Origin: Hymenobacter jeollabukensis
GTDB lineage: Bacteria > Bacteroidota > Bacteroidia > Cytophagales > Hymenobacteraceae
Assembly: GCF_005771675.1 (NCBI RefSeq)
Contig: NZ_VAJM01000001.1
Span: 62,001-126,000, forward strand
Length of the DNA stretch: 64,000 nt
Reading direction: 5' to 3'
Of the stretch, positions 12,918 to 29,857 are shown piece after piece. How positions within the stretch are numbered: the first letter of the stretch is position 1; each line of letters starts with the position of its first letter. The notes under the pieces are model-generated. The model worked only from the letters and a program-made list of their open reading frames with translations. It was not told the DNA's origin and searched no databases. The translations under genes were made by a program, and so were the position numbers.

Positions 12918-12965
12918 AGAGTGGTGGAGCAGAAGGTACTAGCGGGCGGCAACCCGGCGCAAAGA

Positions 12966-12982
12966 CAAAAATAGTAGTTTTG
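12966..12982. promoter_or_regulatory. Back-to-back divergent -7 boxes
   Basis: Minus-strand box TATTTTTG (reading 12973 to 12966) and plus-strand box TAGTTTTG (12975-12982) lie one base apart. Both match the Bacteroidota TAnnTTTG element. Predicted start sites give leaders of about 40 nt for the L,D-transpeptidase (start 12917) and the lipoprotein (start 13031). No good -33 TTG is seen on either side. Confidence 0.6.
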
Positions 12983-13030
12983 TCCAACCGCAGGCCTCCT
13001 AACCGCCCGTCGGCTTTGCTGGTTCCCCCG

Positions 13031-13426
13031 ATGTTACAACGCCCGGCTTTTCTTCTTTCGTGTGCCCTGCTCCTGCTCGGCAGCTGCGGCCACTCCCGGC
13101 TGTCCTTACCGGGCTTCGATGCCGCCGCCTGGCGCCGCGACGTACGCGGCTGCGCCGGCCAGCGCCAGGCCCAGCTTGCGGCCCTGGACCAGCACCGCGA
13201 AGAACTCTACAACGTCCACGTCGACGCCGTGGCCGACCTGCTCGGCCGCCCCGACGAAGAGGAGCTGCAGGAACAGACCCAGCGCGTGTATTACTACTAC
13301 GTGGCGCCCGGCCCGCAGTGCGCCCCCGGCCACCCGGCCGCGGCCACCCGCCGCCTGTCGGTGCGCTTCGGCTCCCTCGGCACCGTGACGGAGGTATTGT
13401 ACACGGCTCCCGCCGGCGTGCAATAA
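13031..13426 (+). CDS. Small lipoprotein, function unknown
   Basis: 131 residues. The ATG at 13031 gives a clean lipoprotein signal (LLSCALLLLGSCG; lipobox LGSC with the modified Cys near residue 19), whereas an earlier in-frame ATG at 12980 would lie inside the -7 promoter box. The mature part has DLLGRPDEEELQEQTQRVYYYYV followed by a Cys and a beta-strand pair (LSVRFGSLGTVTEVLY). This layout, a link-and-compare strand after a helix, recalls small BamE/SmpA-like lipoproteins but I cannot place it in that family. It would sit in the envelope. Confidence 0.7.
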   Translation: MLQRPAFLLSCALLLLGSCGHSRLSLPGFDAAAWRRDVRGCAGQRQAQLAALDQHREELYNVHVDAVADLLGRPDEEELQEQTQRVYYYYVAPGPQCAPGHPAAATRRLSVRFGSLGTVTEVLYTAPAGVQ

Positions 13427-13458
13427 AAAACGGGTGGCCTTCCGAAGAAAGCCACCCG
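13425..13458 (-). terminator. Terminator of the small secreted protein gene
   Basis: Arms CGGGTGGC (13431-13438) and GCCACCCG (13451-13458) are followed, on the minus strand, by a run of six T (13425-13430). It serves the gene at 13486-13890 and may also stop the convergent lipoprotein transcript. Confidence 0.75.
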
Positions 13459-13485
13459 CGGGCGGTAAAAGTCAACGCCCTGGGT

Positions 13486-13890
13486 TTAGCCCAGCCCGTT
13501 GCCGGCCGGCGTAGTCGGCGTAGGCACGGCGTCGCGCTTCAGCTCATCACGCATCAGGCTAATCTGCGACGGGGTGAGGATGCGCTGGCATTCCTGCTCG
13601 TACTGCGCCTCCAGCTCCGTCAACAGCCGTTGTCGTTCGGCGGGGTCCTGTTGGTGCTGCCATTGGATTTCGTCCATCCGAGCCAGCTTCACCTGGTTGA
13701 TGGCGCGCAGGCGAATGTATTGCGCTTCGTTGAGCTTCAGCCGGCTGGCCATCTGGCGGGTCAGTTCTGCCGCCGACGTGACGGGCTGGGGCTGGCCGCC
13801 GGGCATGGCCGCTATCCGGTCTTTCATCTGGGCCGAAGCAGCTGCGCTCATGCCGCACAAAATCAGGGCGAGGGTAAGTGCCTTCGTCAT
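13486..13890 (-). CDS. Small secreted helical protein (LNEAQ family member 1)
   Basis: 134 residues with a signal peptide (about 1-20, ending AAASA) and a nearly all-helical mature part. The core reads TRQMASRLKLNEAQYIRLRAIN, followed by a charged helix and RILTPSQISLM. Two other genes in this window (38602-38967 and 39065-39436) share the same plan: signal peptide, LTRxxAxKxxLxExQ, then a helix and a P-x-Q motif before the end. The L-x-E-x-Q and T-P-S-Q motifs recall the LTxxQ motif of Spy/CpxP-type periplasmic chaperones, which is inference only. An AT-rich upstream region with a palindrome at 14020-14042 precedes it. Confidence 0.75.
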   Translation of the reverse strand: MTKALTLALILCGMSAAASAQMKDRIAAMPGGQPQPVTSAAELTRQMASRLKLNEAQYIRLRAINQVKLARMDEIQWQHQQDPAERQRLLTELEAQYEQECQRILTPSQISLMRDELKRDAVPTPTTPAGNGLG

Positions 13891-14019
13891 GGTGGAAAAG
13901 TTGAAAGTTGATATTGAGACTAAAGCAGTAAAAACTTGGCTTTTATCTGCTTTTCATCCAAATATATATTATTAAAGTTTCAAAACAAGTCATGTTGATA
14001 AACATTCATTCCATGGTAA

Positions 14020-14042
14020 AATGTTCCCATTTCGGGAACATT
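14020..14042. promoter_or_regulatory. Perfect palindrome, possible operator
   Basis: Nine-base arms AATGTTCCC and GGGAACATT around a 5-base centre ATTTC, in an AT-rich stretch about 130 bp upstream of the gene at 13486-13890 and just beyond the terminator at 14067. There is no T run, so a protein-binding site is as likely as an RNA hairpin. A half-like GTTCATTATGGGAAAC follows immediately. Confidence 0.45.
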
Positions 14043-14066
14043 GTTCATTATGGGAAACCAGCCGAC

Positions 14067-14120
14067 GACCAGCAACAAAAAGGCCCCGCAGCGTGCTGCG
14101 AGGCCTTTTTGTTGCTGGTC
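14067..14120 (-). terminator. Long terminator hairpin after DUF4199 gene
   Basis: A near-perfect stem of about 26 bp: outer arm GACCAGCAACAAAAAGGCC at 14067 pairs with its complement ending at 14120, and an inner CGCAGC/GCTGCG stem has a 2-nt loop. It overlaps the very end of the DUF4199 gene region (stop at 14130) and carries internal T runs. Confidence 0.85.
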
Positions 14121-14129
14121 AGAATCCTG

Positions 14130-14603
14130 TTACTCCACGTGTTGTTGCAACGGATTGTGGTCGGGGCTTTTGAAATATTGCATGGCGATGAGCGAGATAA
14201 TCACGCCGGACATCACGCCCTGCAGCAGAATGGCCAGAAAGGCAATGGTAACCGACAGTTCGAAGCCAAACAGGTCGGAGGCGCGCAGCTGCTCCATCAG
14301 ACTCGGGCTGATTACCGTGTAAAGCACGAAGAACAGAGCAAAAGCGACGCTGGCTACGGCCGTGGTGATAATGCCGGTGCCAAAGCCTTGCAGGTAAGGC
14401 ATCCGGTCGTGGCGCACGCGCTTGTAATGCGAAATGGCGGCGCAGGCCCCAATGCCCAGAATCACGATGTTGCCGTAGCTGTACATGATGTTGTCGGCCA
14501 CGCCCAGCAGGCTGGCGACGATGAAGTAGATGGCCATGCCGACGGCCGTAAACAGGCCGTAACGCACGCCGTTGCGCTCGGGGGAAATGTGTTGATCAGC
14601 CAT
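14130..14603 (-). CDS. DUF4199 domain membrane protein
   Basis: 157 residues with four predicted membrane helices (about 16-35, 40-58, 72-97, 118-142). The N-terminus is MADQHISPERNGVRYGL and the third segment is GFGTGIITTAVASVAFALFFVLY. This matches the layout of DUF4199, a Bacteroidota family of four-helix membrane proteins of unknown role. It is transcribed alone, and its terminator begins right after the stop codon. Confidence 0.85.
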   Translation of the reverse strand: MADQHISPERNGVRYGLFTAVGMAIYFIVASLLGVADNIMYSYGNIVILGIGACAAISHYKRVRHDRMPYLQGFGTGIITTAVASVAFALFFVLYTVISPSLMEQLRASDLFGFELSVTIAFLAILLQGVMSGVIISLIAMQYFKSPDHNPLQQHVE

Positions 14604-19892: not shown

Positions 19893-20441
19893 GGGGACAA
19901 CCGCTCTGCTTCTATCGGCTCCGCAAGCATGATTTACGGAACAGGCAGCTGCTGATATGCCGCGTTTGCACCTGATGTCAGTTCGGCTGGGGATGGAGAA
20001 TTTGCTCGGGTGAGCACGCGAACCGGCGTATCCATGCGGGAATCTGAGCGCTTTACCCAGCCGATGCGGGCGTGTCTCAAACTCCGGCAAATCGGCCGAT
20101 GCGAGAACATCGCGCCTACGCGACGCACGGCCCGTTTTTTTTGCAAACAGGCAATGTCCTACCGGAGGTTACCCGCGAAAAGGGGGCACGCGTCGAGTGA
20201 ACAAACATCGTTGCAGGTGCCTTGGCGGCCACAAGCTGCGGATCTGCACAAAGCGCTGCTTTGTTGTGAGGCTTGGGCTCAACGCCTAGCTCAGAAGTTT
20301 ACACGAGAGCGGCAGCAGGCCTGAGCGGCGGGTGGGTTGATGCCCCCCACACCATCAGCGCCAGCCACGGCCCTTCGCTTTGCTACGGATTTACTTCAGA
20401 ATTGCCTGGTAGTCTTGCACCGATACCCTTTCGTGCATGCT
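19893..20441. other. Intergenic region (549 bp) before the TonB receptor
   Basis: No convincing gene is seen here; short open frames have poor composition. I looked for a cobalamin riboswitch because a TonB receptor follows, and found none of its conserved boxes. No hairpin or promoter is recognised. Confidence 0.4.
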
Positions 20442-22682
20442 ATGCTGTTTCGCCCACCTCTCGTCCGACACTTCCTCACGGGTCCAGCTGCGCGGGGCTG
20501 GTTTACCGGGGCCGGCCTGCTGCTGACCGCCGGCGCGGTTCATGCCCAGACCGCCGCCGTGCGCGTCAGCGTGCGCGACAGCCTGACCCGCGAACCGCTG
20601 GTGGGGGCCAGTGTGGGCATTCCGGGTAGCAGCACCGGCGGCCAGACCGACGCCAGCGGCACCGTTACGCTCACGCCGCCTCCCCCGCCCGGCAGCGTGC
20701 TCACCGTGATGGCCCTGGGCTACCGGACGCAGCAGCTGCGGCTGTCGGGCGCGGGCACGGTGGCTGTACTGCTGGCACCGGCAGCCGAGCAGATTGCGGA
20801 AGTGGTGGTGACGGCCACGCGCACCAATTCGCGGCTGGAGGATGCTCCTACGCGGGTGGAAGTGCTGGGCGAAGAGGAAATGCGCGAGGAAAACGGCATC
20901 AAGCCCGGCAATATCGCCTCCCTGCTCGGCGACATTGCCGGCACCCAGATTCAGCCCACCTCACCGACCACCGGCAACGCCGACCTGCGCATTCAGGGCC
21001 TGCAGGGCCGCTACTCGCAGATTCTGCGCGACGGGCTGCCGCTGCTGGGCGGCTACGCCGGCGGCTTCGGCATCCTGCAGATTCCTCCGCTCGATTTGCG
21101 CCAGATTGAGCTGATCAAGGGCTCGTCGAGCACCCTGTACGGGGGCGGGGCCATTGCCGGGCTGGTCAACCTGGTCAGCAAGTCGCCCACGCGGGGCACG
21201 CCGCAGTACGCCGTGACGCTCAACCAGAGCACCCTGCGCGAAAGCAACGTGAACGGCTTTGCGGCGGCCCGCAACCGGCGCCTGGGCTACACCCTCTACG
21301 GCGGCTTTACCCGGCAGCAGGCTGTGGACGTGGACGGCGACGGGTTCGTGGACGTGCCGCGCCTGCGCAACCTGACGGTGCACCCGCGCCTGTTCTGGTA
21401 CCCCGGCGCCCACAGCCAGCTGGTCGTGGGCTACACCGGCACCGAGGAAAGCCGCCGCGGCGGCGACGCGCAGCGGCTCCAGCGTGGTGCGGCCGCCGGC
21501 CTCGACCACCAGTACTTCGTCACCAACCTGCTGCAGCGCCACTCCTTCGACGCCATTTACACGCAGGACAGCCTGGCCGGCGGCAGCCTCACGGTGAAGG
21601 GCACGGCCAGCACCTTCAGCCGGCGGGTACGCACCAACACGGTGGCCTTCGACGCGCGGCAGCTTTCGTACTTCGGCGAGGCCAACTACCTGCGCCGGCT
21701 GGGCGCGCACCACACGCTGGTGAGCGGCCTGAGCCTGAGCGGGGAGCAGCTGCGGCCCGATGCGGCCAGCTTCACGCCTTTGCTCGGCCGCTACAGCTAC
21801 GCCACGCTGGGCGCTTTTGCGCAGGACGACTGGCAGGTACTCACGCCCCTCAGCCTGCAGGCGGGCCTGCGCCTCGACCACCACAACCGCTACGGCAACT
21901 TCCTGCTGCCCCGTCTGGCCTTGCTCTACAAGGCCAAGCCGGCGCTGACCTTCCGGCTCAACGGCGGGGCCGGCTACCGCGCCCCGGTGCCCTACGTGAA
22001 CGAGCTCGACGAGCGGGACTACCCCCGCGTGCTGCCGCTCACCGACCAGAAAGCGGAGCGGTCCGTGGGCGTAAACGGCGACGTGAACTGGTCGCACGGC
22101 TTTGCCTCCGGCCTGCACCTGACGCTCAACCAGGGCTTCTTTTACACCCGCCTCAACCACCCCTCCACGCTGGAGCCGGATGCCACGAATCCGCTGACGC
22201 TACTGCGCTGGCGCAGCCAGGCCCGGCCCGTGGTGAGCCAGGGTCTGGAAACCTACCTACGCCTGGAAGCCGACGAAACCGAGCTGTACCTGGGCTACGT
22301 GCTCACCGACGCCCGCCGCCATTACGACGCGGTGAACCCGCACGTAGAGCTGGCCGCCCGCCACAAGCTGGCCACCGTGCTGGTACGCGAGTTTTCGGAG
22401 CACTGGGGGGCGGGCATTGAGGCCAGCTACACCGGGCGCCAGTACCTCGACACCGGCGAAACCACGCCGGGCTACCCGCTGGTGGCGGCCCTGGTACGCT
22501 ACCGCACCGGCCCCTGGACGGTGGTGCTCAACGGGGAAAACCTGCTGGATTACCGCCAAACCCGCCGCGAAGCTGTGGTGCTCCCGCCCCTGGACAACCC
22601 GCTGTTCAGGCCCCTGTGGGCGCCGGTGGAGGGCCGCGTCGTCAACCTGTCGGTGAACTGGCGGTTTCAGGCCAAGCGGTGA
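20442..22682 (+). CDS. TonB-dependent outer-membrane receptor
   Basis: 746 residues. The ATG at 20442 gives a basic N-terminus and a signal peptide ending in AGAVHAQ. A carboxypeptidase-like regulatory domain follows (about 28-110: VRVSVRDSLTREPLVGASV, then GYRTQQLRL). The plug domain (about 115-230) has IAEVVVTATRTNSRLEDAP and RIQGLQGRYSQILRDGLPLLGG and ends with IELIKGSSSTLYGGGAIAGLVNLVS. The beta-barrel then runs to the C-terminal strand VNLSVNWRFQAKR. It imports an iron complex, vitamin or other ligand with TonB energy; the ligand is unknown. It resembles the FecA/BtuB-like class rather than SusC (no SusD gene follows). Confidence 0.92.
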   Translation: MLFRPPLVRHFLTGPAARGWFTGAGLLLTAGAVHAQTAAVRVSVRDSLTREPLVGASVGIPGSSTGGQTDASGTVTLTPPPPPGSVLTVMALGYRTQQLRLSGAGTVAVLLAPAAEQIAEVVVTATRTNSRLEDAPTRVEVLGEEEMREENGIKPGNIASLLGDIAGTQIQPTSPTTGNADLRIQGLQGRYSQILRDGLPLLGGYAGGFGILQIPPLDLRQIELIKGSSSTLYGGGAIAGLVNLVSKSPTRGTPQYAVTLNQSTLRESNVNGFAAARNRRLGYTLYGGFTRQQAVDVDGDGFVDVPRLRNLTVHPRLFWYPGAHSQLVVGYTGTEESRRGGDAQRLQRGAAAGLDHQYFVTNLLQRHSFDAIYTQDSLAGGSLTVKGTASTFSRRVRTNTVAFDARQLSYFGEANYLRRLGAHHTLVSGLSLSGEQLRPDAASFTPLLGRYSYATLGAFAQDDWQVLTPLSLQAGLRLDHHNRYGNFLLPRLALLYKAKPALTFRLNGGAGYRAPVPYVNELDERDYPRVLPLTDQKAERSVGVNGDVNWSHGFASGLHLTLNQGFFYTRLNHPSTLEPDATNPLTLLRWRSQARPVVSQGLETYLRLEADETELYLGYVLTDARRHYDAVNPHVELAARHKLATVLVREFSEHWGAGIEASYTGRQYLDTGETTPGYPLVAALVRYRTGPWTVVLNGENLLDYRQTRREAVVLPPLDNPLFRPLWAPVEGRVVNLSVNWRFQAKR

Positions 22683-22747: not shown

Positions 22748-22771
22748 CTTCAGTGATTCAAGCACAGTTTG
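22748..22771 (+). promoter_or_regulatory. CTTCAG half-site with -7-like box
   Basis: CTTCAGTGATT at 22748 is followed at the same offset as in the sister sites by ACAGTTTG (22764-22771). The upstream half of the 11-bp direct repeat is not recognisable here. The PAP2 start codon (22776) would be almost leaderless. Confidence 0.35.
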
Positions 22772-22775
22772 CCAG

Positions 22776-23468
22776 ATGCTTTCGACGCGAATTCTGACCT
22801 TTTTGCGGCTTCTGCTGCGCCGGCAGCGGCGGTTGCTGCTCCTGCTGCTGATCGGGCTGGTGCTGCCGTGGAGCGTGTTTTTGAAAGCCGCTACCGAAAT
22901 CCGCGAGGGCGAAGGATTTCCCGGCGACCAGTACCTGCTGCGCCTGGCGCACGCCCACGCCACGCCCGCGCTGGATCGGGTGTTTCTGCTGCTCACCCGC
23001 CTGGGCGGCCCACCAGTGATGCTGCTGGTGAGTGCCACGATGACGGGGCTGCTGGTGCAGCAGCGCCAACGCCGGCACGCCTGGTTTTTTGGCGTGGCCG
23101 TGGGCGGCGCGGCCGCGCTCAACGTTGCGGCCAAAGTACTACTGGGGCGCGCCCGCCCGGCCCTGTGGGTGTCGCTGGCGCCCGAAACGACGCCCAGCTT
23201 CCCCAGCGGCCACGCCATGGGCTCGGCCGCCGTCATGCTCGCAATAGGCCTGCTGCTGGCGCATTCTCGCTGGCGCTGGCTGCTGTGGACGCTTGGTCCT
23301 CTCTTCGCGCTGGGTGTGGGCTGTTCGCGCATTTACCTGGGCGTGCATTACCCTTCCGACGTGGTGGCCGGCTGGATTGCGGCCGTGGGCTGGGTGACGG
23401 GCGTGTACCTGCTCTTCTCGCCCGCCTTGCACCGGCTGGAGCAGCTGTGGGCGGCTACCCGGGCCTGA
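22776..23468 (+). CDS. PAP2 phosphatase, integral membrane
   Basis: 230 residues with an N-terminal Arg/Leu-rich stretch and about six membrane helices. It has the complete three-part PAP2 signature: KVLLGRARP, PSFPSGHAMG and SRIYLGVHYPSDVVAGW. The His in PSGH and the His in VHYPSD are catalytic in the family. Membrane PAP2 proteins dephosphorylate undecaprenyl pyrophosphate, phosphatidic acid, PGP or lipid A. It is the first of three PAP2-type genes within 5.5 kb that surround a two-component system. Confidence 0.92.
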   Translation: MLSTRILTFLRLLLRRQRRLLLLLLIGLVLPWSVFLKAATEIREGEGFPGDQYLLRLAHAHATPALDRVFLLLTRLGGPPVMLLVSATMTGLLVQQRQRRHAWFFGVAVGGAAALNVAAKVLLGRARPALWVSLAPETTPSFPSGHAMGSAAVMLAIGLLLAHSRWRWLLWTLGPLFALGVGCSRIYLGVHYPSDVVAGWIAAVGWVTGVYLLFSPALHRLEQLWAATRA

Positions 23469-23487
23469 GCCCGAGGCGGCGGCGCTG

Positions 23488-23504
23488 CTACCGAATATCT
23501 TCAG
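23488..23504 (+). promoter_or_regulatory. 11-bp direct repeat, response-regulator box candidate
   Basis: CTACCG at 23488 and CTTCAG at 23499, start to start 11 bp. AATCG follows the second half, and a weak -7-like GAGCTTG begins 16 bp after the second half starts. It lies 47 bp before the start of the 73-residue protein gene. Confidence 0.45.
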
Positions 23505-23550
23505 AATCGACGCCGAGCTTGCCGGCCAATCAGCCCCGTTCTGCCCCGCT

Positions 23551-23772
23551 ATGGCTTTTACGCCTCCTTTTTTCCGGCACACGCCGCACATGACGGGCGC
23601 CAAGGCCCCCGCGCCCGAACCGGAGCGCTACCCGTTTCACGACAACGACGCCTGCCCCGTGGGACAGGAAGTCAAGCGCAGCGGGGAGTGGCAATACTAC
23701 GAGCCGCGCACCGTCGAGGAAACCCGCGTGCGCTGCCCGCAGTGCGCGGCGCTGAGCCGACGGGAGGCCTGA
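23551..23772 (+). CDS. Small conserved-looking protein with CxxC
   Basis: 73 residues, no signal peptide. It has YPFHDNDACPVGQEVKRSG, then WQYYEPRTVEETRVRCPQC near the end. Two cysteines in RCPQC and one in ACPVG could bind metal. The start is supported by an 11-bp repeat box 47 bp upstream of the kind found before its neighbours. The coding-like composition and fit between two PAP2 genes argue for a real gene. Function unknown. Confidence 0.6.
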   Translation: MAFTPPFFRHTPHMTGAKAPAPEPERYPFHDNDACPVGQEVKRSGEWQYYEPRTVEETRVRCPQCAALSRREA

Positions 23773-23815
23773 GCGCGGAAGCCGCGTCGCCGCGGCCCGG
23801 CTCGTGCTGCCGCTC

Positions 23816-23832
23816 CCACAGAATTCCTCCAG
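23816..23832 (+). promoter_or_regulatory. 11-bp direct repeat, response-regulator box candidate
   Basis: CCACAGAAT at 23816 and CTCCAGAAT at 23827, exactly 11 bp apart, with TACACC at the offset where sister sites have a -7-like box (23843). It is 81 bp before the PAP2 start at 23913. Confidence 0.55.
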
Positions 23833-23912
23833 AATCGTCCCGTACACCCCGCTCACCCGGCGGCCGCCCCCCGGCCTCGACGGCAGTTTGGTGACCATTA
23901 TTGATGATAACG

Positions 23913-24725
23913 ATGTTGCGTTCTTTTCGCTTTGCACTGGCGGTTGCCGGCGGCCTGAGTGCCGGCACGTCGGCCCTGGGGCAGATAGTGCCGCCCGTGG
24001 CGGTGCCCGATACGACTCACAAATTTGAAAACCCCGGCGGTGTGCCGGCAGCTGTGAAGAAGCCCTGGTACCGCGGCAAGCTGGTGAAGGCGGTGGTTGT
24101 GCCGGCCGCGCTGATCGGCTACGGCGCTTACACGTTCAACGGGGGCGGCTTCTACACCAACCAGCAGGCCAACCGCGACATTCACCGGCTGTTTCCCACT
24201 TACCGCACCCATGTCGACAACATCTTGATTTTTGCGCCCTACGCCGAGCTGGGGCTGGTGGCGCTGGCCGGGGTGGAGTCGCGCAACGACCGGCTGAACA
24301 CGCTGCTGGTCGTCGGCAAGTCGGAGCTGATCATGCTGGCGTCGGTATTCGCCGTCAAGAACCTCACGCGCGAAACCCGTCCCGACGGCTCCGACAACCT
24401 CTCGTTTCCCTCGGGCCACACGGCGCAGGCGTTTCTGGCGGCCAGCATCGTGCACACCGAGTTTCGCGACAAAAGCCAGTGGTACGGCATCGGGGCCTAC
24501 ACCATTGCCACCGGCGTGGGCGCGCTGCGCATGATCAATACCAAGCACTGGCAGTCGGACGTGGTGGCCGGGGCGGGCTTCGGCATTCTGTCGGCCCACT
24601 TGGCCTACCTCTCGCACCGCAACCGGTGGGGGCGCAAGCCGCGCCTGTTGGACGGCACCACGTTTACGCCCACGGTGTACCCCGGCGGCGCCGGCCTGGG
24701 CCTGACCTGGCGCCCGACCCACTAA
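23913..24725 (+). CDS. PAP2 superfamily phosphatase, exported
   Basis: 270 residues with a signal peptide (LAVAGGLSAGTSALGQ). The PAP2 signature is complete: KNLTRETRP, SFPSGHTAQAF and LRMINTKHWQSDVVAG. Unlike the enzyme at 22776 it has few strong membrane helices, so it may be a periplasmic or outer-membrane-associated acid phosphatase-like member. The ATG at 23913 starts the signal peptide. It shares the cluster and the upstream repeat box with the other PAP2 genes. Confidence 0.9.
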   Translation: MLRSFRFALAVAGGLSAGTSALGQIVPPVAVPDTTHKFENPGGVPAAVKKPWYRGKLVKAVVVPAALIGYGAYTFNGGGFYTNQQANRDIHRLFPTYRTHVDNILIFAPYAELGLVALAGVESRNDRLNTLLVVGKSELIMLASVFAVKNLTRETRPDGSDNLSFPSGHTAQAFLAASIVHTEFRDKSQWYGIGAYTIATGVGALRMINTKHWQSDVVAGAGFGILSAHLAYLSHRNRWGRKPRLLDGTTFTPTVYPGGAGLGLTWRPTH

Positions 24726-24731
24726 CCGCGC

Positions 24732-25010
24732 CTACGGCCCAAACAGCCCGGCCAGTACCCGATGCAGGCGGGCCGACCAGGCCGGCGCGGCCCCGTCCGG
24801 CGCCAGCGGGTGCGCCAGGTCGGCTTCCAGTTGGGCTAGCTGCCGGCGGCTGAACTCAATTTCCGGGACCAGGGCCGGGCGGCTTTCCCCGATGATGGTC
24901 AGCACTTCGGGCAGGTCAGTCAGCAGCTCGCGCAGCTCGGCGCGGGAAAGCGGGGCTTTGAGCAAGGTGCGGTGCGTCATGCGCAGCCGCTCGTAGTGCG
25001 AAACGGGCAT
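24732..25010 (-). CDS. Hypothetical protein, 92 residues
   Basis: The ATG at 25010 gives MPVSHYERLRMTHRTLL and a mostly helical soluble protein (SRAELRELLTDLPEVLTIIGES, then EIEFSRRQLAQLEADL). It is convergent with the PAP2 gene (6 bp apart) and divergent from the response regulator gene. I do not recognise the family. Its codon composition looks like its neighbours. Confidence 0.55.
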   Translation of the reverse strand: MPVSHYERLRMTHRTLLKAPLSRAELRELLTDLPEVLTIIGESRPALVPEIEFSRRQLAQLEADLAHPLAPDGAAPAWSARLHRVLAGLFGP

Positions 25011-25175
25011 GGAACAACGAGGAAACAGGGTGGTATGGGTGTTACAACGCCGCGCCGTCAGCCAAAGCAGCGCAGGAAACCAGCCTGACACCGCCTTTTC
25101 GGCCAAACGGGAGACGCGGAGAAATGCCAACTTGCCCCACGATTCTGAGTAAACTCTGAAGCCGGGCCGGCGGGG

Positions 25176-25192
25176 CTACAGGAAGTCTTCAG
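25176..25192 (+). promoter_or_regulatory. 11-bp direct repeat, response-regulator box candidate
   Basis: CTACAG at 25176 and CTTCAG at 25187, 11 bp apart, followed by ATTCG and TTTG at 25206-25209. It lies 61 bp before the response regulator start, which suggests autoregulation. A related CTCTGAAG is found in inverted sense just upstream near 25155. Confidence 0.55.
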
Positions 25193-25252
25193 ATTCGAAG
25201 CCGTGTTTGTCCCGTTGCTCCGCTGATTCCTGCCGCTTTCGTAGTTACTCCC

Positions 25253-25933
25253 GTGAAAGTCCTGATTGTCGAAGACGAAACGCCGCTGCGCCTGAGCCTG
25301 CTCGACTACCTGCGGCACGACGGCTACGTGTGCGAAACGGCCGCGAACTACCAGCAGGCGCACGAAAAGATCAAGCTCTACCAATACGACTGCGTGCTGG
25401 TGGACCTGACCTTGCCCGACGGCAACGGCCTGGACTTGGTGCGCACGCTCAAAGCTGATAACTCCCCCGCCGGGGTGCTCATCCTCTCCGCCCGCGACGG
25501 GCTCGACGACAAGATTCAGGGCCTGGAGCTGGGCGCCGACGACTACCTGGCCAAGCCCTTTCACCTGGCCGAACTCAACGCCCGCCTGCGCGCCATCTTG
25601 CGGCGGCGGCAGTTTCAGGGGCAGCGCCACCTCGCCTTCCGCGACCTGATGGTGTGGCCCGAGCAGGCGCTGGTGCTGGTGCAGGAGCAGCCCGTCACGC
25701 TCACCCGCAAGGAATACGACCTGCTGCTGTTCTTCCTGACCAACCCCAACCGCGTACTCACCAAGGAAGCCATTGCCGAGCACATCTGGGGCGATGCGGC
25801 CGACATGGCCGACTCCTTCGACTTCATCTACACCCACCTGAAGAACCTGCGCAAGAAGCTGCAGGACGCCGGCGCCGATAACTACATTCGCACCATCTAC
25901 GGCCTGGGCTACAAGCTGATGGCGGAAGAATAA
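25253..25933 (+). CDS. OmpR/PhoB-family response regulator
   Basis: 226 residues starting with GTG. The receiver domain (about 1-115) has the acidic pair in VEDE, the phospho-acceptor Asp in CVLVDLTLPDGNGL, the Thr/Ser switch in LILSARDG and the Lys in YLAKPFHLAEL. The C-terminal winged helix (about 125-225) shows VTLTRKEYDLLLFFL, then NPNRVLTKEAIAEHIWG and the recognition helix VYTHLKNLRKKL-like IYTHLKNLRKKL, ending in IRTIYGLGYKL. PhoB-type regulators bind direct repeats with 11-bp spacing, matching the boxes in this cluster. The partner kinase is 112 bp downstream. Confidence 0.95.
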   Translation: MKVLIVEDETPLRLSLLDYLRHDGYVCETAANYQQAHEKIKLYQYDCVLVDLTLPDGNGLDLVRTLKADNSPAGVLILSARDGLDDKIQGLELGADDYLAKPFHLAELNARLRAILRRRQFQGQRHLAFRDLMVWPEQALVLVQEQPVTLTRKEYDLLLFFLTNPNRVLTKEAIAEHIWGDAADMADSFDFIYTHLKNLRKKLQDAGADNYIRTIYGLGYKLMAEE

Positions 25934-25939
25934 GCCGCG

Positions 25940-25967
25940 TTTTTCGTTATTCGTTATTGGTTTTTCG
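25940..25967. repeat. Heptad array, left arm (locus A)
   Basis: Four tandem 7-mers: TTTTTCG, TTATTCG, TTATTGG, TTTTTCG. Its inverted partner is at 26009-26043. Both lie in the gap between the response regulator and kinase genes. Confidence 0.7.
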
Positions 25968-26008
25968 TGGGCTACGGGCCACCGCGCTGACAGGCAGCGG
26001 AGCAGGGA

Positions 26009-26043
26009 CGATTAACGATAAACCCGCCACGACAAACGACCCG
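26009..26043. repeat. Heptad array, right inverted arm (locus A)
   Basis: Five 7-mers: CGATTAA, CGATAAA, CCCGCCA, CGACAAA, CGACCCG. Read on the minus strand they match the TTTNTCG pattern of the left arm. The array ends 1 bp before the GTG start of the kinase gene. Confidence 0.65.
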
Positions 26044-26044
26044 C

Positions 26045-27292
26045 GTGAAGCTGCTTACCACCACCAACCGTTATTACCTGGCCCTGGTCACGGTGCTCTT
26101 TGCCGTGGGCACCGGCGCGCTCTACATCGGCATTCAACACGCCCTGATCGAGGAAGTCGACGAGCAACTCGAGCTGCACCACGGCTTTCTGCGGCAGCGC
26201 ATCCGCGAAACCGGCGCGCTGCCGCCCGTCACCAGCCCCAGCGAGCTGACCATCAGCCGCCACCCGCGCCCGGCCGGGCTGAGCGACACGCTGATTTACG
26301 ACCCGACGGAGCGTAGCCAGGTGCCCTTCCGGGAGCTGTCGTTTTCGGTGCAGGTGCGCGGGCAACGCTACTGGCTCACGCTGCGCAAGTCGCTCATCGA
26401 AACCAGCGAGGTGCTTGGGGTGGTGCTGGGCGTGATGTTCACGGTGATGGGGCTGCTGTTCGGGAGCCTGGTGCTGCTGAACCGCTGGTTGTCGCGCTGG
26501 CTGTGGGCGCCGTTTCACCGCACGCTGGCCTCCCTGCGCCGCTACCGCCTGCAGCAGCCCCAGGCCCTGGAGCTGCCCGCCACGCCTATCGACGAGTTCA
26601 GCGAGCTGAACCAGGCCCTGGCCCAGCTCACCCAGCGCGTCACGGCCGATTACCGGGCCCTGAAGGAATTCACCGAAAACGCGGCCCACGAAACCCAGAC
26701 GCCGCTGGCCATCATGCAGGCCCAGCTGGAGCAGCTCATGCAGCTGCCCGACCTGCCCGCGGCCGCCGCCTCGCCCGTGCGCGAGCTGTACCGCGCCACG
26801 CTGCGTCTCTCGCGGCTGCACCAGGCCCTCACGCTGCTCAGCAAGATTGAAAACCGCCAGTTTACTGATGCCCAGCCCGTGCGCCTCGACGCGCTGGTGC
26901 GCGACAAGCTCGGGCAGCTGCAGGACTTTCTCGACGCCCAGCGCATCGAGCCCGTGCTGCAGGTGGCGGCCCCGCTCTCGGTGACCATGCACCCGCTGCT
27001 GGCCGATTCGCTGGTGAGCAACCTGCTGCAGAACGCGGTGAAGCACAACCTACCCGGCGGCCAGCTGCACGTGCAGATCGACGCGCGTACGCTGGAAATC
27101 CGCAATACCGGCCGTCCGCTGGCCGGGGAGCCGATGCAACTGCTCGGCCGCTTCCGCAAGCACAACGCCGCCTCCGACTCGCCGGGCCTGGGCCTGAGCA
27201 TTGCCCAGCAGATCTGCGCCCACTACGGCGGGCAGCTGACGTACACGTTCAACCCGGTCGGAGCCTGGCACACCCTGCGCGTGGGGTTCTGA
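26045..27292 (+). CDS. Sensor histidine kinase
   Basis: 415 residues with a GTG start. One membrane helix (about 12-32), a sensor domain of about 95 residues outside the membrane and a second helix (about 125-150) precede the cytoplasmic part. The dimerisation/phospho-acceptor domain has EFTENAAHETQTPLAIMQ, where the His is the phosphorylation site. The ATPase domain has the N box SNLLQNAVKHN and the G2 region SPGLGLSIAQQI. It should phosphorylate the regulator at 25253. The sensed signal is unknown; the neighbouring PAP2 enzymes suggest an envelope-lipid cue. Confidence 0.94.
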   Translation: MKLLTTTNRYYLALVTVLFAVGTGALYIGIQHALIEEVDEQLELHHGFLRQRIRETGALPPVTSPSELTISRHPRPAGLSDTLIYDPTERSQVPFRELSFSVQVRGQRYWLTLRKSLIETSEVLGVVLGVMFTVMGLLFGSLVLLNRWLSRWLWAPFHRTLASLRRYRLQQPQALELPATPIDEFSELNQALAQLTQRVTADYRALKEFTENAAHETQTPLAIMQAQLEQLMQLPDLPAAAASPVRELYRATLRLSRLHQALTLLSKIENRQFTDAQPVRLDALVRDKLGQLQDFLDAQRIEPVLQVAAPLSVTMHPLLADSLVSNLLQNAVKHNLPGGQLHVQIDARTLEIRNTGRPLAGEPMQLLGRFRKHNAASDSPGLGLSIAQQICAHYGGQLTYTFNPVGAWHTLRVGF

Positions 27293-27316
27293 GGGCACCG
27301 CCGGCAAGTGGCTGCG

Positions 27317-27333
27317 CTTCAGATGTTCTTCAG
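27317..27333 (+). promoter_or_regulatory. 11-bp direct repeat, response-regulator box candidate
   Basis: CTTCAGATGTT followed directly by CTTCAGAG, the cleanest of the boxes: two identical CTTCAGA words exactly 11 bp apart. A TAAACTG stretch follows at 27344. It is 79 bp before the PAP2-type start. Confidence 0.65.
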
Positions 27334-27411
27334 AGTTGCCGGCTAAACTGCGGGCCTTTGGGTGCCGGCGGAAACCACGCGGCCCCGCTCATTGCCCCCA
27401 CTGCTGGCCGC

Positions 27412-28260
27412 ATGCCGACCCCAATAACCTCGTTGCTGACCCGCTGGGGCAGCGTATTGCTCCTGCTGTGGGCGCTGCGGCCGTCCGGCCTGGCCGCCCA
27501 AACGCGGCCCGATTCGCTGACCATCCCAGCACCCCGCCATGTCGTCGTACAGCTGCCTGTCGCCGATACCCTGCGGCCGTCGGCTGGTCCGCCCGTCCGG
27601 CACTTGCTGGCCCGGCCCGCGTTTCGCCGCGCGGTGGTGCCGGCCGCGCTGCTCACGCTGGCCGTGCTCGGCACCGAAAAGGTGGATGTATTCGAAACCG
27701 ACGAAGAGCTGCGCGCGGAAGTCCACGAGCACCTGCGCATCCGCACCAACCTGGACGACCAGCTGCGGCACGTACCCGCCTATGCCAGCCTGGGCCTCAG
27801 CCTGGCGGGCGTACGGGGCCGGCACAACACGCTGAATCAGGCCCTGCTGTTCGGCCTGAGCTACACCATCAACAACGCCCTGACCAGCCGCCTCAAGCAC
27901 CTGACCCGCGTGGAGCGCCCCCTGGGCAACAGCTTCGACTCGTTCCCGAGCCAGCACACCAGCGCCGCGTTTTCGGCGGCTACGCTGCTGCACAAGGAGT
28001 ACGGTGGGCGCAGCCTCTGGTACAGCGTGGGCGGCTACACCGCCGCCACGGCCACCGGCGGCCTGCGCATTGCCAAGGACAACCACTGGCTGTCCGACGT
28101 AATGGCCGGCGCGGCGGTGGGCATCGTGTCCACCGAGCTGGCCTATTGGGCGTATCCCTGGCTGCACCGGCAGCTGCTGAAAGGCCTCGGCGACCGGGCC
28201 GTGGTCGTGCCGAGCTACCTGAACGGCGCCGCCGGGGCTACCGTGGTAGTAGTGCTGTAG
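27412..28260 (+). CDS. PAP2-type phosphatase, exported, PSQH variant
   Basis: 282 residues. The ATG at 27412 starts a signal peptide (LLLLWALRPSGLAAQ). It is related to the PAP2 protein at 23913: both have a Val-Val-Pro-Ala hydrophobic segment near residues 60-85 and a similar signature order. Here the motifs read KHLTRVERP, SFPSQHTSAAF and LRIAKDNHWLSDVMAG. The Gly of the classic PSGH is Gln; both catalytic His and the Arg are kept, so activity is possible. Its upstream box is the best copy of the putative regulator repeat. Confidence 0.88.
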   Translation: MPTPITSLLTRWGSVLLLLWALRPSGLAAQTRPDSLTIPAPRHVVVQLPVADTLRPSAGPPVRHLLARPAFRRAVVPAALLTLAVLGTEKVDVFETDEELRAEVHEHLRIRTNLDDQLRHVPAYASLGLSLAGVRGRHNTLNQALLFGLSYTINNALTSRLKHLTRVERPLGNSFDSFPSQHTSAAFSAATLLHKEYGGRSLWYSVGGYTAATATGGLRIAKDNHWLSDVMAGAAVGIVSTELAYWAYPWLHRQLLKGLGDRAVVVPSYLNGAAGATVVVVL

Positions 28261-28293
28261 CGCGTTGCTAGCTCACTCTCGACAGGCGTTGCT

Positions 28294-29325
28294 ATGGAAT
28301 TAATCGTCGTGTTTGTGGCGGCCGTGCTGGCGTTCGGGCTGAGCACCGTCAGCGGGGGTGGCGCGGGCCTGCTGCTGCTGCCGGTACTGGCGCGGGTACT
28401 GCCCACCGCGGCGGTGCCGGCGGCTCTCACGGTGGGCACGGCCACCAGCACCGTCTCGAAGCTGGCCCTGTTCCGGCACCACGTCAACTGGGCCGTCACG
28501 CGGCGCTTCGTTCCGGGCGCGGTGCCGGGCGTGCTGCTGGGGGCCTACCTGCTGAAATACCTCAACCCGCTGTACCTGGAGGTGTTCATCGGCCTGTTTC
28601 TGCTCTCGAACCTAACCATGCTGCGCCGCTCGGCCCCGGCGACGGTGGTGGAGCCCGCGCCCGTCGGCTGGCTGAAGCTGAGCAGCATCGGGTTGCTGGC
28701 GGGCTTTCTGTCGGGCCTGACCGGCGCCGTGGGGCTGGTGTTCAACAAGTTTTACTTCCAGTACGGGCTAAGCCGCGACCAGGTCATTGCCACCCGCGCG
28801 GCCAACGAACTGCTGCTGCACCTCATTAAGCTGGCGCTGTACCTCTCGCTGGGCCTGCTCACCGGCCCCGCGTGGCAGGCCGGGGCCGTGGTGGCGGTGG
28901 CCGCCGTGCTGGCCACGGCGGCCACCAAGCGCATCGTGCATTACCTGCCCGAAGCCTCGTTCCGGCGCCTCGGCTACGCGGCCATGGTGCTCAGCGGGGG
29001 CTTCATGCTCACCGCGGCCGCCACCGAGCTGCGCACCACCGACAACCTGCGCGCCAGCACCGCCCTGCTCGGCGACGAGCTGGAGGTGACCGGCTGGTGG
29101 CGCAGCCGCAGCCTCACGCTGGAGCTGGAAATCGACGAGAGCCCCGCCATCGAGCAGCCCGTGGCGCTGGCGCAGCTGCCCCCATCGGTACAAGCCGCGA
29201 TGCACCGCCTGCAGCAGGGACGGCCCATTATCAAGATCGAGGAAGTGTGGCAGCTCAACCACCATTACTACGAGCTGTACCTGAACGACCGGGGCCGCGT
29301 CGTGTCGTTGGACGTGGTGCCGTGA
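28294..29325 (+). CDS. TauE/SafE family permease with PepSY-like C-terminal extension
   Basis: 343 residues. The first 245 or so form the TauE/SafE permease with about eight helices (STVSGGGAGLLLLPVLARV; FLSGLTGAVGLVFNKFYFQYGL). Members move sulfite, sulfoacetate or other small anions. The last about 85 residues leave the membrane and resemble a PepSY-like unit: QLPPSVQAAMHRLQQGRPIIKIEEVW, then HYYELYLNDRGRVVSLDVVP. This strand-helix-strand pattern is shared with the secreted PepSY-like protein encoded next (29393). It lies 33 bp after the PAP2 gene and is probably co-transcribed with it. Confidence 0.85.
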   Translation: MELIVVFVAAVLAFGLSTVSGGGAGLLLLPVLARVLPTAAVPAALTVGTATSTVSKLALFRHHVNWAVTRRFVPGAVPGVLLGAYLLKYLNPLYLEVFIGLFLLSNLTMLRRSAPATVVEPAPVGWLKLSSIGLLAGFLSGLTGAVGLVFNKFYFQYGLSRDQVIATRAANELLLHLIKLALYLSLGLLTGPAWQAGAVVAVAAVLATAATKRIVHYLPEASFRRLGYAAMVLSGGFMLTAAATELRTTDNLRASTALLGDELEVTGWWRSRSLTLELEIDESPAIEQPVALAQLPPSVQAAMHRLQQGRPIIKIEEVWQLNHHYYELYLNDRGRVVSLDVVP

Positions 29326-29330
29326 GCCGC

Positions 29331-29347
29331 CGCCAGAAAAACCACAG
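29331..29347 (+). promoter_or_regulatory. 11-bp direct repeat, response-regulator box candidate
   Basis: CGCCAGAAAAA at 29331 followed by CCACAGAAAGC at 29342, 11 bp apart, with TAGGATTA beginning at 29358 at the same offset as in the sister sites. It is 62 bp before the PepSY-like gene start. Confidence 0.5.
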
Positions 29348-29392
29348 AAAGCGCGCGTAGGATTACGGCGTCAACCATTCATTCCCGCTCCC

Positions 29393-29857
29393 ATGAAAAC
29401 GTACCTGTTGCTGGCCCTGGCCACGGGCCTGGCCGGCGCCGCCAAGGCGCAAGAAATTACCGCCAAGCAAGTGCCCCCGGCGGCGGTGGCGAGCCTTAAG
29501 AAAGCGTACCCCGCCGCCAAGTCAATCAAATGGGAGAAAGAGGACGGCAACTACGAAGCCGAATTCCAGCAGGGCGCCGACCGGCTGTCGGTGGTGATAA
29601 CGCCGGCGGGCCAGCTGCTGGAAACCGAGACGGAAATCCGGACGGCGCAGCTGCCGGCCGCCGTGCGCAGCAAATTGGTTCGGGCCTACGCGGGCTACCA
29701 GGTGACGGAAGCCGCCCGAATCGTGACGGCCGCTACCGGCGCCACCACTTACGAAGCCGAGCTACGCCGGCCCGGCAAGAAAATGGACGTGATTTTCGAT
29801 GCCAACGGCGCGGTGGTCAGAACGGAAGCCGGCGGCGCAAAAAACGGGGAGAAGTAG
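29393..29857 (+). CDS. Secreted PepSY-like (DUF2874) protein
   Basis: 154 residues with a signal peptide (LLLALATGLAGAAKAQ). Two PepSY-like units follow. The first is PPAAVASLKKAYPAAKSIKWEKEDGNYEAEF; the second begins LPAAVRSKLVRAY and ends TTYEAELRRPGKKMDVIFDANGAVV. Such periplasmic proteins are often encoded beside two-component systems in Bacteroidota; their role is not settled, but binding or inhibition in the periplasm is assumed for PepSY. Its repeat box ties it to the regulator at 25253. Confidence 0.85.
   Translation: MKTYLLLALATGLAGAAKAQEITAKQVPPAAVASLKKAYPAAKSIKWEKEDGNYEAEFQQGADRLSVVITPAGQLLETETEIRTAQLPAAVRSKLVRAYAGYQVTEAARIVTAATGATTYEAELRRPGKKMDVIFDANGAVVRTEAGGAKNGEK

Follow-up and report, generated by a model that had tools for sequence, protein, structure and literature searches.

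Phased direct repeats in the place of the -33 element mark a predicted two-component envelope regulon in Hymenobacter

Introduction

The regulator PhoB binds the pho box, in which repeats stand in 11-bp phase and take the place of the -35/-33 contact of the promoter. Housekeeping promoters of Bacteroidota have a -33 element, TTTG, and a -7 element with the consensus TAnnTTTG. The targets of two-component systems are sparsely mapped in this phylum. Here we analyze a 64,000-nucleotide stretch of the Hymenobacter jeollabukensis genome (hereafter the window; C1:62001-126000 of a 6.18-Mb assembly in 27 contigs), in which repeats of the same phase precede a response regulator gene and genes of its surroundings. 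An original prediction, made from this sequence alone, had placed CTTCAG repeats 11 bp apart before three PAP2 phosphatase genes (one of them with a half-site only), a 73-residue gene, a PepSY-like gene and the regulator gene at 25253, and had proposed that this regulator activates the whole cluster and itself. Our results indicate that the repeats are very probably the operator-promoters of one autoregulated two-component regulon, whose PmrA/PhoB-like activator would be bound in place of the -33 element.

Three further systems invite comparison. According to the accessible part of one report, the PmrA box reads CTTAAG-N5-XTTAAT, with head-to-tail halves 5 bp apart, and a docking model of PmrA assigns base contacts to Lys153, Thr187, Asn188, His193 and His195, of which His193 and His195 are named as likely determinants (PMC3973317). 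For PorX, an excerpt of PMC8050853 gives ATT-N8-AAT as the sequence common to its sites in the porT promoter. ColR of Pseudomonas putida is described, in the section available of PMC2689224, as an OmpR-type regulator whose targets are membrane genes, among them DgkA and PagL.

Results

Six strong boxes stand out from chance

The element reads CTNCAGAWTTNCTNCAGAATC and has TAgnTTTG at a constant distance behind it. All five predicted pairs are present, at 23488/23499 (CTACCG-N5-CTTCAG), 23816/23827 (CCACAG-N5-CTCCAG), 25176/25187 (CTACAG-N5-CTTCAG), 27317/27328 (CTTCAG-N5-CTTCAG, the sole perfect repeat among them) and 29331/29342 (CGCCAG-N5-CCACAG). A loose consensus, which we rejected as proof, does not set them apart in the window: there are 10 C..CAG pairs with a lag of 11, no enrichment against the 25-37 at the codon-phased lags 9, 12, 15 and 18, and CTTCAG-N5-CTTCAG with up to three mismatches yields 61 matches against 44.9 +/- 7.35 expected, a count reached by 2 of 100 shuffles. 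Genome-wide, the repeat with one mismatch occurs 15 times forward and 10 times reverse, hardly above the 10 and 5 of a reversed-pattern control, so the bare pattern says little. Because the loose consensus is within chance in this GC-rich window, we used relatives instead.

The regulator matched 31 loci, of which 28 are named Hymenobacter and the other three are distant (31-38%). From the regulator-upstream sites of 27 Hymenobacter relatives we built a matrix of 21 columns (effective number 14) that contains no window sequence. Applied to both window strands, it placed 20383+, 23816+, 23488+, 27317+, 25176+ and 25161- at the top (25.6-21.5 bits); four of these belong to predicted pairs, and 20383+ and 25161- had been missed. 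Seventh was 39607- (17.9 bits), an AT-rich match that we put down to chance. Third-order Markov copies of 29 sources (2.04 Mb) gave no match of at least 18 bits and two of at least 16, and the real sequence (0.41 Mb) gave 73 of at least 20 bits, training sites included. Together with the six top window ranks, this shows the matrix to match these promoters more often than other DNA, as the original prediction required. When all similar sites were left out of the matrix, the site of the regulator was still the best within 220 bp and third or better in its own locus in 27 of 27 loci, and reached at least 16 bits in 24 of them. In 28 relatives, C..CAGA pairs concentrate at lag 11 (29 cases, compared with 0-3 for any other lag between 7 and 19), which is the head-to-tail, 11-bp phase expected of the OmpR/PhoB family. 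A second perfect CTTCAG repeat of the genome, C24:243130, was discarded, the surrounding 10-kb locus (L062) containing no matrix match above 16.

The window thus holds six strong boxes and one weak one (Table 1). The weak box, the fifth predicted pair, reaches a score that a gate of 60 positions would give by chance with a probability of about 0.006, and it lies 62 bp before the PepSY-like start, within the 61-82 bp of most PepSY boxes of relatives (L056/L063 and L061 fall outside, at 217 and 286); we therefore call it a weak but plausible box of this gene. The half-site at 22748, which had been assigned to the first PAP2 gene, was rejected: it scores negatively in both registers, and a box in this place would begin as little as 39 bp upstream of the ATG at 22776. 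Accordingly, two of the three PAP2 genes keep a box of their own (23816, 27317), and the third, PAPa, is more probably served by the box of the TonB receptor gene, 20383, with a gap of 93 bp between the two genes. The TauE gene, 33 bp behind PAPc, probably rides on the boxed promoter 27317.

Table 1. Boxes and genes of the cluster, in window coordinates
Feature	Position	Strand	Remarks
Box and -7 before TonB receptor gene	20383..20418	+	25.6 bits, top of all window positions
TonB-dependent receptor gene	20433..22682	+	Pfam
CTTCAG string, predicted half-site, unsupported as box	22748..22753	+	scores -12.3 and -8.7 (registers 22737, 22748)
PAP2 phosphatase gene, PAPa	22776..23468	+	Pfam
Box and -7 before 73-residue gene	23488..23523	+	23.3 bits
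73-residue gene	23551..23772	+	homologs in L033, L036, L100, L103
Box and -7 before second PAP2 gene	23816..23851	+	25.3 bits
PAP2 phosphatase gene, PAPb	23913..24725	+	Pfam
92-residue gene behind divergent box	24732..25010	-	
Divergent box and -7, arranged back to back with the autoregulatory box	25126..25161	-	21.5 bits
Autoregulatory box and -7 of regulator operon	25176..25211	+	22.3 bits; 77 bp before start codon
OmpR/PhoB-family response regulator, 226 residues	25253..25933	+	Response_reg and Trans_reg_C over cut-off
Sensor histidine kinase, 415 residues	26045..27292	+	NCBIfam PorY family, 414.7 bits, cut-off 350
Perfect repeat and -7 before third PAP2 gene	27317..27352	+	23.2 bits
PAP2 phosphatase gene, PAPc	27412..28260	+	Pfam
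TauE/SafE-type transporter gene	28294..29325	+	Pfam
Weak box before PepSY-like gene	29331..29366	+	10.3 bits, rank 12
PepSY-like gene	29393..29857	+	PF11396

The repeats occupy the -33 place of a Bacteroidota promoter

Promoter statistics were taken from 29 deduplicated non-regulator sites of relatives, which had been chosen on the 21 box columns only. In these sites a Bacteroidota-type -7 element fills columns 27-34, starting 27 bases after the box start and 16 after the second half, with base frequencies (percent) of T62 A90 G69 n T76 T100 T83 G76; the most constant positions are the A of column 28 and the T of column 32. The constant distance noted by the original prediction, about 16 bp after the second half, therefore holds in the window and beyond it. 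A conserved -33 TTTG was not found in columns -4 to 20 of the same sites, and since neither the box columns nor the four before them conserve it, the repeats occupy the -33 place. In two loci, L179 (3231-3198 minus) and L189 (2257-2290), PepSY-like genes are preceded by four CAG half-sites that keep the exact 11-bp phase; these could be extended operators that load two dimers.

Box, regulator and envelope genes are conserved together

Relatives have kept the sites along with the cluster, the second requirement of the original prediction. A box lies 58-82 bp before the regulator start in 27 of the 28 Hymenobacter loci, and in the remaining one (L030) no repeat pair precedes the regulator. In a survey of 150 genomes of the family, using a sequence-only model built from 41 sites of relatives, 86 of the 87 genomes with the regulator at E up to 1e-81 had a match (E up to 0.05), as did 12 of the 63 genomes without a close regulator. 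The genera g3 and g4, which lie outside the training loci, carry the box in 33/33 and 8/8 genomes, and all 16 held-out loci with the standard recognition helix (L080-L095; g3, g4, g6) have a box of at least 19.5 bits before the regulator.

We counted 151 boxes of at least 19.5 bits in 70 sources, namely the window, the 28 named loci, two stretches of contig C7 and 39 other stretches, with some species represented twice. By in-frame comparison, 60 of them precede a regulator (61 counting the C7 regulator), 21 a PepSY-like gene, 15 a PAP2 gene of the PAPc type, 9 one of the PAPb type, and 3 a TonB gene, two of these being one gene fetched twice; 40 precede none of the window proteins. The largest non-window target group comprises 20 genes related to each other, most of which are transcribed away from the regulator and of which the one tested is a TolC-like OEP (L061), and the next comprises 8 lipoproteins, the one tested being also OEP (L038). 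In addition we sampled 20 remote regions, where the model match is on another contig than the listed regulators or at least 9 kb away. Here the boxed gene is PepSY-like in 11 cases (so assigned by Pfam for all 4 proteins tested, and by BLAST against the PepSY gene of the window for 12 of 12), and the other nine regions have PAP2 (1), epimerase (2), outer-membrane- or TonB-like (2), GH5 (1) and DUF347-like genes (3, one tested). The common theme of these targets is the cell envelope, which could point to a role in the remodeling of lipids or lipid A under metal or cationic stress. DUF347 membrane proteins recur behind the box in Hymenobacter (L045:1477-2247, L172, L183, L187) and are probable regulon members.

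Among the window genes, regulator 25253 belongs by its domain content to the OmpR/PhoB family, with a receiver of 92 bits (cut-off 30.2) and a Trans_reg_C winged helix of 74.9 bits (cut-off 26.2). The PAPc product matches LpxE weakly (27 bits vs 177), and the 73-residue product has no match in Pfam and NCBIfam. At the place that corresponds to the divergent box 25161-, L061 and several relatives have a box directed at an OEP (TolC-like) gene. The 92-residue gene found there in the window has homologs in 2 other genomes among 60 (39-43% identity), at other places and with no box above 14 bits beside either, so that 25161- could be a remnant, or a promoter put to a new use.

A second cluster on contig C7 carries the same boxes

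The model was also run over the own genome (E up to 10), in a lossy search that scored 150 of 933 candidates. It listed 16 places. Each of the best 12 (E up to 0.47) belongs to one of two clusters, C1:82388-87208 in the window or C7:98120-116417; the remaining four have E values of 0.63-5.6. The C7 cluster (L061 and L100, G000:C7:92000-124999) is a paralog of the window cluster, with identities of 92% for the regulator, 81% for the kinase, 76% for the 73-residue gene and 82%, 92% and 52% for the PAP2 genes, and its regulator has the same recognition helix, DSFDFIYTHLKNLRKK. Seven boxes of at least 21 bits precede the regulator-kinase pair, a divergent OEP-HlyD pair, a PepSY-OEP-HlyD-AcrB unit (an RND pump), a PAP2-PepSY-TonB-like unit, a YncE-like propeller gene with PAP2, a PAP2 gene and the 73-residue gene (L100), whose box scores 24.9 bits and lies 53 bp before the start; these operon limits are putative. 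The pump and the divergent OEP-HlyD pair are present in the C7 but not in the window cluster. As the same boxes accompany a 92% identical regulator, the two regulators probably share targets.

Half-sites change together with the recognition helix

The solved sequences closest to the regulator are PmrA/BasR chains (1.4e-37), followed at a narrow margin by Mycobacterium tuberculosis PhoP (3e-36). In the alignment, Asn188 and His193 of PmrA correspond to residues 190 and 195 of the window-type regulator. We surveyed the helix in 111 regulator rows, training loci and repeat fetches included, with a box threshold of 19 bits. The standard class, DxxDFxY[TSN]H, has a box in 62 of 68 rows and the DSFDFIYSQ type in 6 of 8, with half-sites that begin with T. 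No box of at least 19 bits was found for the DNYEFIYSQ (0/18), DTFENVYAH (0/9) and DNYNF types (0/5) or for three singletons (0/3). DNYEFIYSQ regulators (L096-L098, L120-L130) have a conserved TTCCCA-N5-TTCCAGA instead, about 50 bp before the start. Repeats seen by eye upstream of DTFENVYAH and DNYNF regulators (L143, L149, L150, L137, L159), ATTTAGAATAC ATTT(G/A)GAA and AATCTGTAGA, were too weakly conserved in the lag test and have no statistical support.

For a comparison of half-sites we anchored unique sites on the core CAGA and the -7 element only and kept those that reached at least 62% of the core. Grouped by residues 190/195, this retained 59 of 62 Asp/His, 7 of 8 Asp/Gln and 18 of 18 Glu/Gln sites; Glu/His (0 of 9 at threshold), Asn/His (2 of 4) and Asn/Gln (0 of 1) were left out. 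The second half begins with T in 24 of 25 Gln regulators vs 4 of 59 His regulators, and the first half does so in 24 of 25 vs 5 of 59. Gln at residue 195 thus goes with T-initial and His with C-initial half-sites, and in Glu/Gln sites the first half is also altered, to TTCCCA. One genome (G041) has both kinds, a His-type gene with a CAGA box (L152) and a Gln-type gene with the TTCC type (L098). The 26 Asp/Gln and Glu/Gln rows fall into a single clade of the tree (100/98), which therefore reflects essentially one His-to-Gln event, so that p-values for the half-site comparison are not to be read literally; one Asn/Gln row stands elsewhere.

Discussion

Our data suggest the following order of events. 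Upon a signal, kinase 26045 would presumably phosphorylate the OmpR/PhoB-type regulator 25253, which would bind head-to-tail to two CTNCAGA half-sites 11 bp apart. The bound regulator would recruit RNA polymerase in a class II-like manner, because the repeats replace the -33 element directly upstream of the -7 TAnnTTTG. Six window promoters would be activated in this way, including that of the regulator's own operon, raising the TonB receptor with its PAP2 gene, the 73-residue gene, PAP2, PAP2 with TauE and the divergent transcript, and probably the PepSY-like gene. The core of the original prediction, an OmpR/PhoB-type regulator that uses 11-bp repeats where the -33 element would be and controls itself and its cluster, is supported by the matrix and the conservation of the sites, and it is geometry only that argues for activation over repression.

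Chance similarity in GC-rich DNA, which the unenriched lag-11 count and the reversed-pattern control for CTTCAG might suggest, is hardly conceivable as an explanation of the whole in view of the cross-species matrix, the phase control, the simulated null, the left-out test and the loci of unrelated genera. It is refuted for the six strong boxes and is the best reading of the 22748 half-site. More weight attaches to the possibility, doubtful though appreciable, that the boxes are read mainly by the paralogous C7 regulator, or by both regulators, and that the 25253 copy is redundant or specialized. The 92% identity of the two proteins, their common helix and the seven C7 boxes would fit; yet the window copy keeps its own kinase and an autoregulatory box, and most relatives have the boxes with a single close regulator copy. 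Control need not lie with 25253 alone, since the C7 regulator could act on the same boxes.

A box that directly abuts the -7 element is also where a repressor would act, by blocking polymerase at -33/-7. We consider such repression unlikely, as promoters that lack a conserved -33 TTTG look dependent on help, and PmrA and PhoB activate from sites with repeats of this kind according to the available part of PMC3973317. Recognition by another protein, such as an alternative sigma factor or a different OmpR-type regulator, appears very improbable: the genome does have many response regulators (62-72 first-look candidates) and the tally of close regulators comes from one protein query, but box presence tracks the window-type regulator across the 150 genomes, most loci have the box in front of the regulator gene itself, and the half-site changes with the regulator's helix.

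Several observations weigh against an autoregulated regulon under regulator 25253. Six of the 68 standard-helix regulators lack a box of at least 19 bits (L030, L109, L114, L119 and the second regulator in L046/L117, one gene fetched twice), and the 12 boxed genomes without a close regulator comprise 7 of the 28 whose sole homolog is distant and 5 of the 35 with none at 1e-70. The lossy scan of the own genome did not list 27317, the 29331 box is weak, and the covariation of helix and half-site stems from few evolutionary events. We nevertheless favor the autoregulated regulon, which turns hitherto unlabelled envelope genes into predicted members and gives them a putative regulator, operator and promoter geometry.

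A broader reading, for and against which the evidence seems to us evenly balanced, is that PorY-like kinases and adjacent OmpR-type regulators of Hymenobacteraceae run a PmrAB-like envelope regulon of PAP2, PepSY-like, OEP/RND, TonB and sugar-nucleotide epimerase genes, and that paralogous regulators re-coded their own operators via residues 190/195. Asp/His would then read CTNCAGA, Asp/Gln TTNCAGA, and Glu/Gln TTCCCA followed by TTCCAGA. If true, this would be a natural series for the DNA recognition code of OmpR-family regulators; paralogs in which helix and half-site have both changed make base recognition in this family directly testable.

Titles and abstract beginnings of the literature matches listed contain no description of the box or regulon, and the parts of PMC10197871 and PMC10434189 available offered nothing decisive. 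By its automatic name, the kinase would belong to the PorX/PorY system of Porphyromonas gingivalis, as it exceeds the NCBIfam PorY cut-off, which in its own genome only the C7 copy (L061, about 12929-14176) also passes. However, the regulator adjacent to the kinase, the gene compared here, is OmpR-type, with a box unlike ATT-N8-AAT, and none of the ten window proteins examined, which are those of the boxed genes, has a Pfam match to the type IX secretion system. The name PorY may therefore mislead for these kinases, and such a label can pin a secretion role on kinases that stand beside an OmpR-type regulator and PAP2/PepSY genes. ColR shares with the window system an OmpR-type regulator of membrane genes but has a different motif, ACGNNTTTTTNAC, in the portion available of PMC2689224. 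With PhoB the window regulator has its domain architecture and the 11-bp-phased repeats in common, whereas its score (164 bits vs a PhoB cut-off of 296), half-site and targets differ. PmrA/BasR is the nearest among solved sequences and likewise has head-to-tail half-sites 5 bp apart, and the window regulator has a His at the position of PmrA His193. The half-site, in contrast, is CTNCAGA rather than CTTAAG, the match of 175.3 bits stays below the NCBIfam PmrA cut-off of 330, and the window system has a Bacteroidota -7 element and PAP2, PepSY-like, OEP/RND and TonB targets; by score and half-site, regulator 25253 is thus not PmrA. Apparently undescribed in the literature searched, the regulon appears to be real, well conserved and of a known kind that works like PmrA and PhoB.

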